Positions 8,737 to 52,378 of a stretch of 64,000 bases of DNA are shown one piece after another. This DNA comes from Rhodanobacter sp. GTDB taxonomy: Bacteria > Pseudomonadota > Gammaproteobacteria > Xanthomonadales > Rhodanobacteraceae. Below the pieces are notes generated by a model. It made no database searches, had not been told where the DNA came from, and was given only the letters and a program-made list of their open reading frames with translations. A program made the position numbers and the translations under genes. The stretch spans positions 1-64,000 of the forward strand of contig SCRM01000005.1 of assembly GCA_004298045.1 (NCBI GenBank), given 5' to 3'. Numbering within the stretch: the first letter of the stretch is position 1; every line of letters starts with the position of its first letter.

Positions 8737-9246
8737 ATGGCTTCCAACGATCGCGAAAGTTCTGACGGTCTGCTCGAAAAGCTGATTGCCGTCAACCGCG
8801 TGGCCAAAACCGTCAAGGGTGGCCGCCAGATGAGTTTCACTGCCCTGACCGTGGTTGGCGACGGCGAGGGCAAGGTCGGTTTTGGTTATGGCAAGGCGCG
8901 TGAAGTGCCGGTGGCCATCTCCAAGGCCATGGATCGGGCGCGTCGTAACCTGGTCAGCGTCGAGTTGAACAACGGCACGTTGTGGTACGCGATCAAGGCG
9001 AACCACGGTGCGGCACGCGTTTACATGCAACCGGCCTCTGAAGGTACCGGCGTCATCGCGGGCGGCGCCATGCGTGCCGTGCTCGAGGTGGTCGGGGTCA
9101 AGAACGTGCTGGCCAAGGCCGTCGGTTCGCGCAATCCGATCAACCTGGTACGCGCGACCATCAAGGGTCTGCAGGCTGTAGCGTCGCCGAAACAGGTGGC
9201 CGCCAAGCGTGGCAAGTCGGTGGAGGAGGTGTTGGGCAATGGCTAA
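8737..9246 (+). CDS. rpsE: 30S ribosomal protein S5
   Basis: 169 residues with the N-terminal dsRNA-binding-like fold ([20 protein letters not shown]) and the C-terminal S5 domain. S5 influences decoding accuracy. Start ATG at 8737. Unlike its operon neighbours it has no clear Shine-Dalgarno (CGGAATCGAGAA precedes the ATG), and the upstream spacer holds the repeat hairpin and two smaller hairpins. It overlaps rpmD by 8 bases. Confidence 0.96.
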
Positions 9247-45106: not shown

Positions 45107-46222
45107 TCACAACGTCGCGTCGGCGCCCCACAGTGCAGCCATGCTTACCGGCATTTTCAGGGCTTCGAGATCGGCGGTGGTCTGGATCGCGTGCATCGGC
45201 GAATCGCCGTTGTGGCGCAGCGGCGTGGGCAGGCGCATGCCGACCGCGTTGGTGATCGCCGCCAGCCGCGGGCCGTGTTTGCCAGTGCCGCGCTGGGTGA
45301 CGATGGCAATGCTGCCGTTGCGCAGGCGCACACCGGTGCCTGGCGGGTGCACGCCGATCGCCTTGATGAATTGCGCCACCAGGGTTTCGTCGATCTGGCC
45401 ACCCTCATTCAAGAACAACTGGCGCAGGGCGGGCGTAGGTACCATGGCGGGGCGATAGGCGCGTGCCGAGATGCGCGCGCAGTAGATGTCGGCGAGCGTG
45501 AGCAGGCGGGTCGGCTGGGCAACGGCGCTGCCGCGCCGACCCGCCGGATAACCGCTGCCGTCGATGCGTTCGTGATGGTCACGCACGGTAGCGAGCCACA
45601 CCGGATCGTCCACGCCCAGTTCGCGCAGCATCTCGACCCCGCGCTCGCAGTGACGGCGGATGATCTCCTGCTGTTCCGGCGTCGGCGGCGCATGCGACTT
45701 GTACAGCTGCTGCTGCACTTCGAGCATGCCGATGTTCATCGTCAAGGCAGCGGCCGTGGTCGAGGCGAGCAGGTCGTCGTCCCACTCGAACGTGGCACCG
45801 ACGACCTGGCACAGCGTGGCAACGTTGACTGCGTGGCGCACCGCGTAGGGCGCGTCGCGCATCAGTACCACGGCAGCCAGCGCGAGGTCGGCGTTGGCGC
45901 GGCAGGCGCGGCGCACGAGTGCGGCGATGCGCACCAGGTCGGCCGGAAAATAGCTCGAACCCTGCTCGAACAGCGCCATCAGACGCCAGCGGGCGGCGAT
46001 GAGCATGCCCAGTGGCGTCGCCGGAATGGTGGTTTCCTGCTCCGCGCGCCCAGGGGACGGCGCCGTTGTTGCCAACGCGTTTTCCGCAATCAGGTCGCGT
46101 TGCAAGGTGTTGCGGATGATCGAGCCGTGACGCAGCAGCAATTGGCCCTTGCCGTTATACGCATCGCGCGGCAGCACCTGGCCTACGGTCAGGTCATTGG
46201 GGTCGAAATCGCGTGACTTCAT
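45107..46222 (-). CDS. HD-GYP-like protein with degenerate HD site
   Basis: 371 residues. The second half follows the HD-GYP layout: RHAVNVATL, an HD position that reads MNIGMLE instead of HDIGK, then RRHCERGVEML, DHHERIDGSGYP and LADIYCARIS. The HHE and GYP parts are kept but the HD pair is lost, so c-di-GMP hydrolysis is doubtful; it may only bind the nucleotide. The ATG at 46222 overlaps the stop of a 14-codon leader ORF (ATGA); the track's ATG at 46309 is less likely. Confidence 0.8.
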   Translation of the reverse strand: MKSRDFDPNDLTVGQVLPRDAYNGKGQLLLRHGSIIRNTLQRDLIAENALATTAPSPGRAEQETTIPATPLGMLIAARWRLMALFEQGSSYFPADLVRIAALVRRACRANADLALAAVVLMRDAPYAVRHAVNVATLCQVVGATFEWDDDLLASTTAAALTMNIGMLEVQQQLYKSHAPPTPEQQEIIRRHCERGVEMLRELGVDDPVWLATVRDHHERIDGSGYPAGRRGSAVAQPTRLLTLADIYCARISARAYRPAMVPTPALRQLFLNEGGQIDETLVAQFIKAIGVHPPGTGVRLRNGSIAIVTQRGTGKHGPRLAAITNAVGMRLPTPLRHNGDSPMHAIQTTADLEALKMPVSMAALWGADATL

Positions 46223-46263
46223 GGCCGGTACGGCCGGTCGGGAGCGGGTTGTGGTTGCGGCAT
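46219..46263 (-). CDS. 14-residue proline-rich leader peptide, coupled to the HD-GYP gene
   Basis: MPQPQPAPDRPYRP. The ATG at 46263 has a perfect AGGAGG eight bases upstream (46272-46277), the best ribosome-binding site in this area, while the HD-GYP ATG has none. The TGA overlaps the HD-GYP ATG (ATGA), as expected for translational coupling. Six of the 14 codons are proline. Too short for the ORF track as an own entry; whether it is translated is an inference. Confidence 0.55.
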   Translation of the reverse strand: MPQPQPAPDRPYRP

Positions 46264-46800
46264 GTTGGGCACCTCCTCTCGCGGACACCTCGCGAGTCGA
46301 TCGCACCATCGGTCACGGGGTGGTCGGCGCGCTGAGCGTAACTTCGCTGGGTCATCGGCGGGACGGGAGGAAAGTTGAGTGGGGCCGGGAACAGGAAGAG
46401 CGAGCCGATGCGAGGGCGGGCCTGGTGGCTTTGCTGGCGGCGGTTGCCGGGCTTGGGCCCGACCCACAAGGGCAATCACCCTGCGGGTACCCGTTGTGTC
46501 CGATTCCCGATTTCCCAGCCGGGAGATTCTGCATTCCCGGAGGGGCCTGGTCTAATCGCGCGGCCGGTCGTCATCCCTGCGGTTTCGCGTTGCGCCAGCT
46601 CATCCTCGTTGTGAATGAGGGGCCCGAATGATCGGCAGGTCAGGTCTTCGCTTGGCTTGGCGGCCGCCAGGCTCGCCAGCAGCGCGCGGGCGCTGTACCG
46701 CGGGCCGACCTTTGGCGTGAGTGTCGGGTTCCGAGCTGGCAACCCGCGCGCCGGGCCGCCACAATGCAGCAGCTCTTTCCCGTTTGGACATCCGTTTGCC
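46264..46800. other. 537-base spacer between the leader ORF and dapD
   Basis: No convincing gene is seen. It contains the Shine-Dalgarno of the leader ORF and a heptad-like block at 46499-46540 (GATTCCCGATTTCCCAGCCG, then GCATTCCCGG). TCTAAT (about 46550) could be a -10, but no good -35 accompanies it. The dapD ATG at 46801 has no strong ribosome-binding site. Confidence 0.5.
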
Positions 46801-47982: not shown

Positions 47983-50900
47983 TTACGGGGCCGGTGCCGG
48001 TGTCCACGAGGTCAGGATCGGCAGCGGGCCGGGCGCGTTCTGGCGTGCCAGCATCGCGCGCAGCGTGCCCAGCACATCCTCGGCCAGTGGCGCGTGCATC
48101 GGCGCAATGCCAACCCACGCATTGCGGCCGCCGTGCTTGGCGGCGTACAGGCACGCATCGGCGAGGTTCACCACTTGGTCCCAGCCGAGCTGGTCGGGCG
48201 CATCGGCAAAGAACGGGTAGCAGGCAAAGCCGATCGAGCAGGTGACGTGGGTCCGGCGCCCTTCGCCCAGGTCGAACACGTGGTTGGCGACGGTGGCGCG
48301 GATACGTTCGGCCAACAGCGAACCGTCGTCGTGCGGCACGTTGCGTGCCACGATCAAAAACTCCTCGCCGCCGCGGCGCACCGGTATGTCGGTGCTGCGG
48401 ATGGCGGCCAGCAGGATGTCGCGCAGTTGCTGCAGCACGCGGTCGCCGGCCGCATGCCCCCAGGCGTCGTTGATCGCCTTGAAATGGTCGATGTCGATCA
48501 TCAGGAACAGCAGCCGCCCGGTGTCCACATGGTGCGCAGCCTGAATGTCGTGCTGGATGGATTCATCCAGGTAGCGCCGGTTTTTCATCCCGGTCAGCGG
48601 GTCGGTGACGGCCTGCTGGGTGAGCGCCTGATTGGCTTCGCGCAGCGCATCGTTGGCATGTGCGAGTTCTGCCGTGCGTAGTGCCACGACGGCTTCGAGC
48701 GCGCGGTTGCGTTGTTGCATGCGCGCCACGCGCCAACGCAGCAGCAGGTACAGCGCAGTGCCGGCCAGCAGCAGCCAGGTCAACCACGCCCACCAGGTGC
48801 CGTACCACGGCGGCAGGATGCGGAAATCGAACGTGACCGCACGCGCCTCCCGGCCGTAGGCATCGCGACCACGCACGTGAAACCGGTACACCCCCGGCGC
48901 AAGGTTCGTGTAGTCGCGATAGGCAGCGGCCGCCCACGGCGACCAGTCGCGGGCAAGACCTTGCAGCCACACCTGGTAGCGGTTGCCGGCGAGTTTGTCG
49001 AAGCTGGGCAGGGCGAACTCGAAGCGCAGCGCGTTGTGAGCGTACGGCACGGCCAGCTTATCGGTGGCCGGGCGATTGCCGAACAAGGCGATGTCGCCTT
49101 GCTCGGCAACCATGCGCAGCAGGGTGGCGGGCGTTGCTGCCGGTGTGCTGCGGTGGCTGCGTTGATAGCGAAACAAGCCGTTGTCGCTGCCGATCCACAA
49201 CGCGTCGTCGCCCTCGTCGAGGTACGTATTGGCGCCGGCGCCCTGGATGAGTTGCAGCGGCGTTTCCTTCCATTGCCAGCCGTTTGGGGTGCGGATCGCG
49301 CGTCCGGTATGCCTCAACCCCTTGGCGTCGGTGATGGTGGTCCACACCTCGCCGTGGTGGTCTTGATACAGGCTGTCCACCGGCAGGGTGCTGTGGGGTA
49401 CCAATCCGGCGGCGCCAGGGTCCGGCTCGAAACGTTGGTTTGCCGCAAAACGATAGATGCCGGCGTTGGTGATGAAGCGGATGGTGCCGTCGATACGCGC
49501 CTCTTGCACCAGCCCATCCGGCAAGCCGTCGTGGTGGCCGAAACGCTCGATGCGGACGGCGCCACGACCGCCATCGACGGTATCCGGCGCAACGCGCGCG
49601 CGCAGCAGGCCGCCCACCCACGGGCTGAGCCACAACTGGTCATCGCGGTGTTCCGTAATGCTGCGGATTTGCCCTTGCACCGCCGCGATGCGGCCCTCGT
49701 CCAACCAGCCCTTCGCGGTGCGGCGGATCGATCCGAAGCCGTCCTGATAGCCGACAAACAGGCGGTTGGGGTCGCGCTGGGAGCGCTGCAGCGCCAATGC
49801 CGCGGTGCCGCGCGTGATGCGGGTGATAACTGGCGGCTGGCCGTTGCCACGGTCGGTGTAGGCAAACACGCCGTCATCGGTGGCCACCACCAGCTCGCCG
49901 TCGGCCTCGTCGAGATCCCAGATCTGCCCCGGCAAGGGTTCCGCCCGGGTGAAATGGGCATTGGCGCCGGTCGTCATCCGAAACAGGCCTTCGGTGGTGC
50001 CGACGAACAGCGCACCGGCGTAGCGGCGGATGGTTTGTACCTCGCCGCGCAGACCATTGCGGGTATCGAACACAGTCAGCGGCGCGGCGGTCGCCACCCG
50101 CGCGATACCGTTGCCGGTGGCCAGCCACAGCCCGTTGTCGCGATCAACGAGAGTGGCCAGTATCAGGTTGCTGCGCAGCCCGGTGGCGTAGTCGAGGGTG
50201 TAGGCAAGGTGCCCCGAGGCATCCGCCACGTACACCCCGCCGCGCAAGGTGTTGATCGCGAGCTGGCCGTTGGCGAGCCAGGTGGCGCCGTAGAGGTTGT
50301 CACGGCGGATCTCGGCCGCGACGTCCAGCGCCCACGGCGTAAAGGTGCCGGCGTGGTAAAGGAACCAGCCCTGCGAACGGGTACCGATGAGCAGCTCGCC
50401 GGGCAAATGGCCAGGCCCGCGCCACGGCAGCAGCGCGTAGATCTTTTCGTTCGCAAAGCGCCCGCTGCCGGGAACGAGTTGCAGCTTGCCGGCCACCATC
50501 TGCATTAGCCCGCGGCCGACTTCGCGCACGTAGAGGGTGTCGTTGACGATGAAGCTGAAGTGGAAACTCGTGGCTGGTTTCCACACCTGCATGGTGCCGC
50601 GTTGGTAATAGAAAATGCTGGAGAGCGTGACGAAATACACGCCGTGGGCTGTGGCGTGGATGTTCCACACGTCGGCAAAGCCACGCTCAGCCTTGGGCAC
50701 GGCTGGCAGCAGCGAGGCAAACACCAGGCGCCCGGCCGCGTCGCGTTTCAAATACCCGAGGTTGCCGACGGTGCCGACATAGATGAGCCCGTCCGGGCCG
50801 AGTGCCAGCGAGCGCACGGTGGCGTGGTCGGGTACTGCGATGGTCTCCCAGCGTGCCCCGTCGAACACCAGGATGCCGCTTTCCACATTGCCCACGTAGA

Positions 50901-51135
50901 TGACGCCGTCGCGGTCTTGCGCAATCGCCCAGTTCTGCGCGCCACCGCCGTATTCCGAAGGCGAAAAATTGTGCACGAACGGCAAACCGGCGTTGCTGGC
51001 TGTCGTCGCGGACACAGCTCCGGTGGGTACGGCGGCCAGCGCACACGCCGCAAAAAGGCACAAAACGACGCAGGCGCACCACTGGCCCGGGTGTGGCCCG
51101 GTGCAATGGTGTCCGGCGATGGGCGGCTGCCCCAT
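47983..51135 (-). CDS. periplasmic-sensor diguanylate cyclase (propeller-Y_Y_Y-GGDEF)
   Basis: 1050 residues: an N-terminal secretion/anchor segment, a long beta-propeller sensor, a Y_Y_Y domain near 690-780, one transmembrane helix (WWAWLTWLLLAGTALYLLLR), a short coiled coil and a GGDEF domain. The cyclase site reads GGEEF and an RSTD I-site sits at the usual distance before it, so it should make c-di-GMP with product inhibition. The ATG at 51135 follows GAGGAT; the track's 78 extra residues are unlikely. It lies antisense between the dapD pair and dapE. Confidence 0.9.
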   Translation of the reverse strand: MGQPPIAGHHCTGPHPGQWCACVVLCLFAACALAAVPTGAVSATTASNAGLPFVHNFSPSEYGGGAQNWAIAQDRDGVIYVGNVESGILVFDGARWETIAVPDHATVRSLALGPDGLIYVGTVGNLGYLKRDAAGRLVFASLLPAVPKAERGFADVWNIHATAHGVYFVTLSSIFYYQRGTMQVWKPATSFHFSFIVNDTLYVREVGRGLMQMVAGKLQLVPGSGRFANEKIYALLPWRGPGHLPGELLIGTRSQGWFLYHAGTFTPWALDVAAEIRRDNLYGATWLANGQLAINTLRGGVYVADASGHLAYTLDYATGLRSNLILATLVDRDNGLWLATGNGIARVATAAPLTVFDTRNGLRGEVQTIRRYAGALFVGTTEGLFRMTTGANAHFTRAEPLPGQIWDLDEADGELVVATDDGVFAYTDRGNGQPPVITRITRGTAALALQRSQRDPNRLFVGYQDGFGSIRRTAKGWLDEGRIAAVQGQIRSITEHRDDQLWLSPWVGGLLRARVAPDTVDGGRGAVRIERFGHHDGLPDGLVQEARIDGTIRFITNAGIYRFAANQRFEPDPGAAGLVPHSTLPVDSLYQDHHGEVWTTITDAKGLRHTGRAIRTPNGWQWKETPLQLIQGAGANTYLDEGDDALWIGSDNGLFRYQRSHRSTPAATPATLLRMVAEQGDIALFGNRPATDKLAVPYAHNALRFEFALPSFDKLAGNRYQVWLQGLARDWSPWAAAAYRDYTNLAPGVYRFHVRGRDAYGREARAVTFDFRILPPWYGTWWAWLTWLLLAGTALYLLLRWRVARMQQRNRALEAVVALRTAELAHANDALREANQALTQQAVTDPLTGMKNRRYLDESIQHDIQAAHHVDTGRLLFLMIDIDHFKAINDAWGHAAGDRVLQQLRDILLAAIRSTDIPVRRGGEEFLIVARNVPHDDGSLLAERIRATVANHVFDLGEGRRTHVTCSIGFACYPFFADAPDQLGWDQVVNLADACLYAAKHGGRNAWVGIAPMHAPLAEDVLGTLRAMLARQNAPGPLPILTSWTPAPAP

Positions 51136-51313
51136 TACATCCTCAGTGGTAGCGGCAGGCTCGAAGCGCCTGCCTCGAAGGCTGGCAAGCAAATGGCTTG
51201 CCAGTTGCTGGCGGCGGTTGCGGCCGCGCGAACCTTGGCGCAGGTGGTTTGCGGCGGCCCATCGTAAGCTGCACGACGCGGCAGACCGCCGCGTCACCAC
51301 TGGTTGACACCCC

Positions 51314-52378
51314 ATGGGCGATCCCCGCACCCGCCGTGTCCGCAACAATCTGCGCATCGAGCGCGACAACGCCGCGCTTTACGCGCGGCTGGCGGCGCTG
51401 GCGGGCGATGCGCCGCAGGCTCAGGTCTATCGCCGCATCGCGGCGGGCGAAAAGGCCAATGCGGCGTTTTGGGAGGCGCGGCTGCGCGCGTTGGGGGCGG
51501 TGGTGCCGCCGGTGCGCATCGGAGCGCGCGTACGCGTGCTTGGCTGGTTTGCACGTCACTTCGGCACCGAATTTGTCATGCCGACCGTGGTGCGCCGGGT
51601 CCACGCCGATTACCTCGCCACGCCGGTCGACCGCAGCGGCCATCGCGACCACTTTGCGTCACCGGGTCTGCTCGCTGGGGCCGGCCACCGGCATCGTGCG
51701 CAAAGCGGCAATACCCAGCGTGCCGCGGTGCTCGGCGCCAACGACGGGCTGGTCTCCAACGTGTCGCTGGTGATGGGCATGGCCGGCGCCGCCACCGGCG
51801 ACCGCGCGGTGCTGCTGGCGGGGCTGGCCGGGCTGGTGGCCGGCGCCTGTTCGATGGCGCTGGGCGAATGGCTCAGCGTGAACAGCTCGCGCGAGTTCTA
51901 CCAAGCGCAGATCACCGAGCGCGCGGAGCGCCTGGCGGCGGTGCCGGAAGCAGGGCTGGCGAACATTGCCGATATCTATCGCGACAAGGGGCTCGACCCG
52001 GCGGCGGCCGAGCACCTCGCCGGCCATGTCACCGCCTCGCCGCGCGCCACGCTGGACATGCTGGTGCGCGAGGAGCTGGGCGTCGATCCCGCCGAGCTCG
52101 GCGGTTCGGCGTGGAGCGCGGCGATCTCGTCGTTTTTCCTGTTTGCCTGCGGTGCGTTGTTTCCGGTGGCGCCGTATTTCTTCACCGGTGGCGGTACCGC
52201 GCTCGCTGCGAGCGCGGCCACCACGGCCGTGGGGCTCAGCCTGATCGGCGTCGGCACGGCCCTGTTCACCGGACGCAACATGCTGTTTTCGATTGCGCGC
52301 CAGTTCGGCATCACGCTCGGCGCCGCGGCGGTGACTTGGGGCGTGGGCCATGTGCTGGGCGTAACGCTCACGGGCTGA
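51314..52378 (+). CDS. MbfA-like iron transporter (ferritin-like plus VIT1/CCC1)
   Basis: 354 residues: an N-terminal ferritin/rubrerythrin-like helical part (about 10-70) and a C-terminal VIT1/CCC1 membrane domain of about five helices ([36 protein letters not shown]). Related proteins export iron (MbfA) or store it (VIT1). In the ferritin-like part the second ExxH motif reads EKAN, so the di-iron site appears incomplete. Divergent from the GGDEF gene. Confidence 0.85.

Follow-up and report, generated by a model that had tools for sequence, protein, structure and literature searches.

Natural RTGA-coupled small upstream ORFs have already been described in mycobacteria (Shell et al. 2015, PMC4633059), and a recent review suggests that the use of short upstream ORFs to deliver ribosomes may be widespread (PMC12548453). 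For other genes, 4-nt overlaps were found to couple tightly, for which the final 15 nt of the upstream reading frame were enough (PMC10666635), and a downstream Shine–Dalgarno sequence (SD) usually aids coupling (PMC12548453). Here we analysed a stretch of 64,000 nt from Rhodanobacter sp. (contig SCRM01000005.1; the window), in which a short ORF (the mini-ORF) overlaps the start of an HD-GYP gene. We consider it rather probable that this mini-ORF is a ribosome-loading device, coupled to the HD-GYP gene behind a FliA-type promoter. The coordinates are collected in Table 1.

Table 1. The mini-ORF, the HD-GYP gene and its upstream region in the window, with comparable ORFs of relatives
Feature	Position	Strand	Remarks
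FliA (sigma-28)-type promoter TCAACTTT-N11-GCCGATGA	46352..46378	−	13/16 match
Predicted 5' UTR, about 123 nt	46222..46345	−	start site deduced from promoter
SD of mini-ORF, GAGGAGGTG	46270..46278	−	6-nt gap to ATG
14-codon mini-ORF MPQPQPAPDRPYRP, stop TGA	46219..46263	−	from sequence; ATG 46263–46261 plus 13 more codons, TGA 46221–46219
Possible 5-bp GC hairpin GGCCG-TAC-CGGCC	46223..46235	−	directly before HD-GYP ATG
ATGA stop/start overlap, mini-ORF and HD-GYP gene	46219..46222	−	from sequence; HD-GYP ATG 46222–46220 shares ATGA with mini-ORF TGA
Degenerate HD-GYP protein, 371 aa	45107..46222	−	HD pair replaced by MN (LTMNIGM); HHERxDGSGYP kept
Frateuria Soil773			SD AGGGGGUGA, 24 codons, stop 12 nt before ATG
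Rhodanobacter UBA5168			SD GGGGGU, 23 codons, ATGA overlap
Rhodanobacter T12-5			SD AAGGGG, 19 codons, stop 1 nt before GTG
Root480			ORF with TTG start; weaker case

The duplex between the mini-ORF SD and the anti-SD had an energy of −11.6 kcal/mol with a short anti-SD and of −14.2 kcal/mol with a longer one. By anti-SD pairing energy, no SD was detectable at the HD-GYP ATG (46222) or at the in-frame GTG at −66 of the HD-GYP start, and the mini-ORF contains no second SD ahead of the HD-GYP start, the element that bicistronic designs call for. The anti-SD energies and the sequence thus confirmed what a sequence-only reading of this DNA had pointed out, a short ORF with a strong SD overlapping an SD-less HD-GYP ATG. 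Its AGGAGG site before the mini-ORF was also correct, but not the spacing of 8, which on recounting was 6–7. The mini-ORF shares two properties with RTGA-coupled upstream ORFs, a 4-nt overlap with the gene start and an efficient initiation signal. RNA folding of the leader region was no better than that of shuffles. An Rfam search of the leader gave no match up to E = 1 and therefore no known riboswitch, and a second copy of the UTR was not found elsewhere in the genome.

The start of the HD-GYP gene was examined by comparison with orthologues. A start codon lies at the residue aligned to 46222 in 46 of 57 orthologues, and MKSRDFDPNDLTVG aligned gap-free with orthologue N-termini, for example VPRRPIDTTELTIG and MPRRPIDPAELTVG, at their own start codons. 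The protein is 371 aa long, compared with 369–376 aa in the orthologues, and the coding signal sets in at 46222. By these comparisons, 46222 is the true HD-GYP start. Because orthologue starts, protein lengths and coding signal agree on this position, the ATG at 46309, raised by the sequence-only reading as an alternative, is unlikely. That the gene begins upstream at this in-frame ATG, leaving the mini-ORF irrelevant, is in our judgement highly improbable: the frame does stay open for 29 further codons, but the extension carries no coding signal, its GTG has no SD and the orthologues start elsewhere. We also find it very unlikely that the mini-ORF is the true N-terminus, fused to HD-GYP by a frameshift that is either programmed or a one-base assembly error. 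The sole strong SD nearby belongs to the mini-ORF, which starts with MP where relatives often start with MPRR. However, the gap-free alignment at the orthologues' own start codon and the similar layout in separate genomes argue against a fusion, and no slippery site was seen.

The HD-GYP protein matched PF13487 (8e-24), and its nearest solved chains are HD-domain phosphodiesterases. Among aligned orthologues HHE and DGSGYP are invariant or nearly so, whereas the HD metal-binding pair is MN in 16 of 16, as opposed to an HDIGK-type motif; the enzyme 5z7c carries HD at the place aligned to MN. Judged by its residues, the protein is probably not an active phosphodiesterase. Neighbours of the gene are glnD, dapD, an ArsC/Spx-like gene and a gene for a large GGDEF protein. 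A GGDEF protein with regulator-propeller repeats is encoded at 47983–51369 (−) of the window, with dapD and the ArsC/Spx-like gene between it and the HD-GYP gene.

Alignment of the orthologue upstream regions revealed a shared block, T[CA]AAGTTT-N11-GCCGAT, which has the form of a sigma-28 (FliA) promoter. The 13/16 score of the window element was reached by 0 of 60 shuffles; in 431 kb of the genome, just 2 sites scored at least 13, and scores of at least 11.5 were found in 19 of 32 distinct family orthologues, window included. FliA is encoded in the genome (276 bits), as is flagellin. Since the flagellin gene of this genome has only a partial promoter match (10/16), it is from conservation at the HD-GYP gene that we infer FliA-dependent transcription. 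In the genome, a looser FliA pattern was barely more frequent than in the control (13 versus 9), and a sigma-70 scan found nothing. The promoter element lies upstream of the mini-ORF, which would therefore be present in the mRNA; with a transcript start near 46345, the whole mini-ORF falls within the predicted UTR. The gene represents a conserved degenerate HD-GYP family, which probably belongs to the flagellar regulon. In same-genus orthologues, the FliA element was not found directly upstream, and the gene lies mostly some kilobases from dapD. These orthologues (L008, L009, L018, L020, L021, L024 and L025) form a separate clade; the window copy groups on a long branch with Rhodanobacter proper and not with that clade.

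In the mechanism that we propose, the HD-GYP gene would be transcribed from the FliA-type promoter to give a 5' UTR of about 123 nt. Ribosomes would load at the strong SD (46270–46278) and translate the 14-codon ORF; on reaching its TGA, which overlaps the HD-GYP ATG, they would terminate and initiate anew at that ATG, or else they could make the start accessible to another ribosome by unfolding it. In this way the mini-ORF would substitute for the missing SD of the gene, and its peptide sequence would be largely irrelevant. Loading is supported by the combination of strong SD, ATG and ATGA overlap at a gene that itself has no SD, by the identity of 46222 with the homologous start and by a promoter element that would place the mini-ORF in the mRNA; the SD-led ORFs of SD-poor relatives, described below, point the same way. 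We infer translation of the mini-ORF, its coupling to the gene and the strength of that coupling. Against coupling stands the HD-GYP start, which lacks the downstream SD that usually aids it.

For base rates, a crude gene caller was run over 431 kb of the same genome (the window plus further stretches). In the 377 genes so called, the mini-ORF was the sole case of a short ORF with an SD of −10 or lower that overlaps a gene start. In Markov-shuffled UTRs, an ATG leader with such an SD, ending near the start, arose in 0.07% of trials. The arrangement is unusual but not by itself proof of function, because the case was picked from about 60 genes in the window and because an ATG behind a strong SD is no rarity away from genes: of 42 ATGs with an SD of −10 or lower in the 431 kb, 5 were at called gene starts. 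A good SD was missing at 248 of 367 crudely called starts and, therefore, a start without an SD may work unaided. The mini-ORF might then be a chance by-product, with HD-GYP initiating on its own without an SD and the AGGAGG–ATG being accidental or a ribosome standby site only. We regard this as possible but doubtful. It would fit with two thirds of called starts having no good SD, with strong SD–ATG pairs lying mostly away from gene starts and with an unconserved peptide, but it leaves aside the low chance rate of the combination at this place and the similar layout of other SD-poor orthologues. Elsewhere in the same genome, at L079 (G000 C8) 6664–6626 (−), a 13-codon ORF, MPMSRRALRRMAA, with SD GGAGG has an ATGA overlap with a called gene whose SD is weak. 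At 9239 (+) of the window, the crude caller missed an ORF of 65 codons whose SD is very strong (−14.2); it may encode a small protein.

The mini-ORF peptide has Pro at 6 of its 14 residues, including the last sense codon. The usual substrate of EF-P is Pro-Pro, and the peptide contains none. The sequence-only reading had suggested that the leader controls HD-GYP translation, for example by pausing at prolines or through EF-P supply. Control by coupling is still favoured by the ATGA layout and the conserved 46222 start; the proline and EF-P part is not supported, as the Pro-Pro is missing and the ORFs of relatives are unrelated and not proline-rich in the same way. In a variant of this idea, the ribosome would be paused by the prolines, or held on the overlap because its release at the final Pro-TGA is slow, and HD-GYP output would respond to the supply of EF-P or release factor. 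The many prolines and the C-terminal one invite such a reading, and in E. coli termination can be slowed by a C-terminal Pro (Hayes 2002, cited in PMC7246954). However, EF-P reportedly did not affect release at Pro in vitro (Pierson 2016, cited in PMC7246954), and comparable ORFs of relatives have no Pro before the stop. With the peptide also free of Pro-Pro, we give this variant very little weight; slow release at the final Pro-TGA is conceivable but lacks specific backing.

The family orthologues that we compared are 42–53% identical to the window protein, none being closer than 53%; in GTDB they are named Rhodanobacter, Frateuria, Dyella and Fulvimonas, which places the host in Rhodanobacteraceae. 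They were found with an alignment query, a GTDB scan with a single protein as query having returned no relative; a plasmid search gave no match. In most orthologues, Fulvimonas soli among those with an SD, the gene carries an SD of its own and no leader precedes it, which by the refuting condition of the sequence-only reading speaks against a conserved leader. Leaving the window aside, an SD-led ORF ending near the start was present in 4 of 5 orthologues whose SD is weak or absent (Table 1), versus 2 of 26 with an SD, and these 2 are sister sequences. The ORFs of the SD-poor relatives have 19–25 codons and end within about 20 nt of the start. Over a grid of cut-offs, again without the window, p for this contrast ranged from 0.002 to 0.5 and several stricter cut-offs lost it; the criteria were chosen after the first cases had been seen, and the sequences are not independent, with relatedness uncorrected in p. 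The association of SD-led ORFs with a weak or absent gene SD is thus suggestive only.

The comparable ORFs encode unrelated peptides. Between the sister species L165 and L166, the ORF stays in frame, with 11 nonsynonymous and 3 synonymous codon changes; the HD-GYP gene itself has 77 nonsynonymous and 80 synonymous changes. Of the 7 carriers, 6 cluster within a single ten-member group of the protein tree (support 86/92) and Frateuria Soil773 lies outside; the window protein forms a long branch of uncertain place. The window copy may have a history of transfer or hidden paralogy. Tentatively, and with considerable doubt, we suggest that, at this one conserved FliA-driven gene, ordinary SDs were repeatedly replaced in Rhodanobacteraceae by SD-led mini-ORFs that arose de novo and end at the start codon or shortly ahead of it, with no conservation of the peptide. 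In Nitrospirae orthologues (L105 and L108), a 3-codon ORF, ATG ACA GCA TGA, has an ATGA overlap at the start of an SD-less gene.

If ribosome loading by the mini-ORF is correct, the locus would be a clean natural case in which orthologues of one gene differ in how they are started, some species using an SD and others a coupled mini-ORF. The origin of translational coupling, and its replacement of direct initiation, could then be studied on a comparison set that is already at hand. In Rhodanobacteraceae, the flagellar (FliA) regulon would also gain a link to a degenerate HD-GYP protein. A repeated exchange of SD for mini-ORF, if true, would make these loci a natural, evolving series of ribosome-loading modules.

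In synthetic nonsense-peptide boosters and bicistronic designs (PMC13255528), a meaningless ORF of at least 8–10 codons ahead of a gene raises its translation, and here, too, a short ORF precedes the gene; the boosters, however, depend on a strong RBS that lies within their short ORF at 4 nt from the target AUG, and the mini-ORF has none. Overlapping gene pairs that use termination–reinitiation (Huber et al. 2019, PMC6728339; 2023, PMC10666635) share the 4-nt ATGA, which is among the commonest coupled geometries, but their upstream cistron is a gene with its own product, whereas here it is a 14-codon ORF. In the RTGA-coupled mycobacterial ORFs (PMC4633059), as here, an RTGA tetramer links a short ORF to the gene. 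Initiation in the mycobacterial example shown is leaderless, whereas the mini-ORF lies, with its strong SD, within a 5' UTR downstream of a FliA-type promoter; the phylum differs as well. In the mycobacterial example the linkage is conserved and the peptide is not, and ribosome delivery is held to be independent of the peptide sequence.
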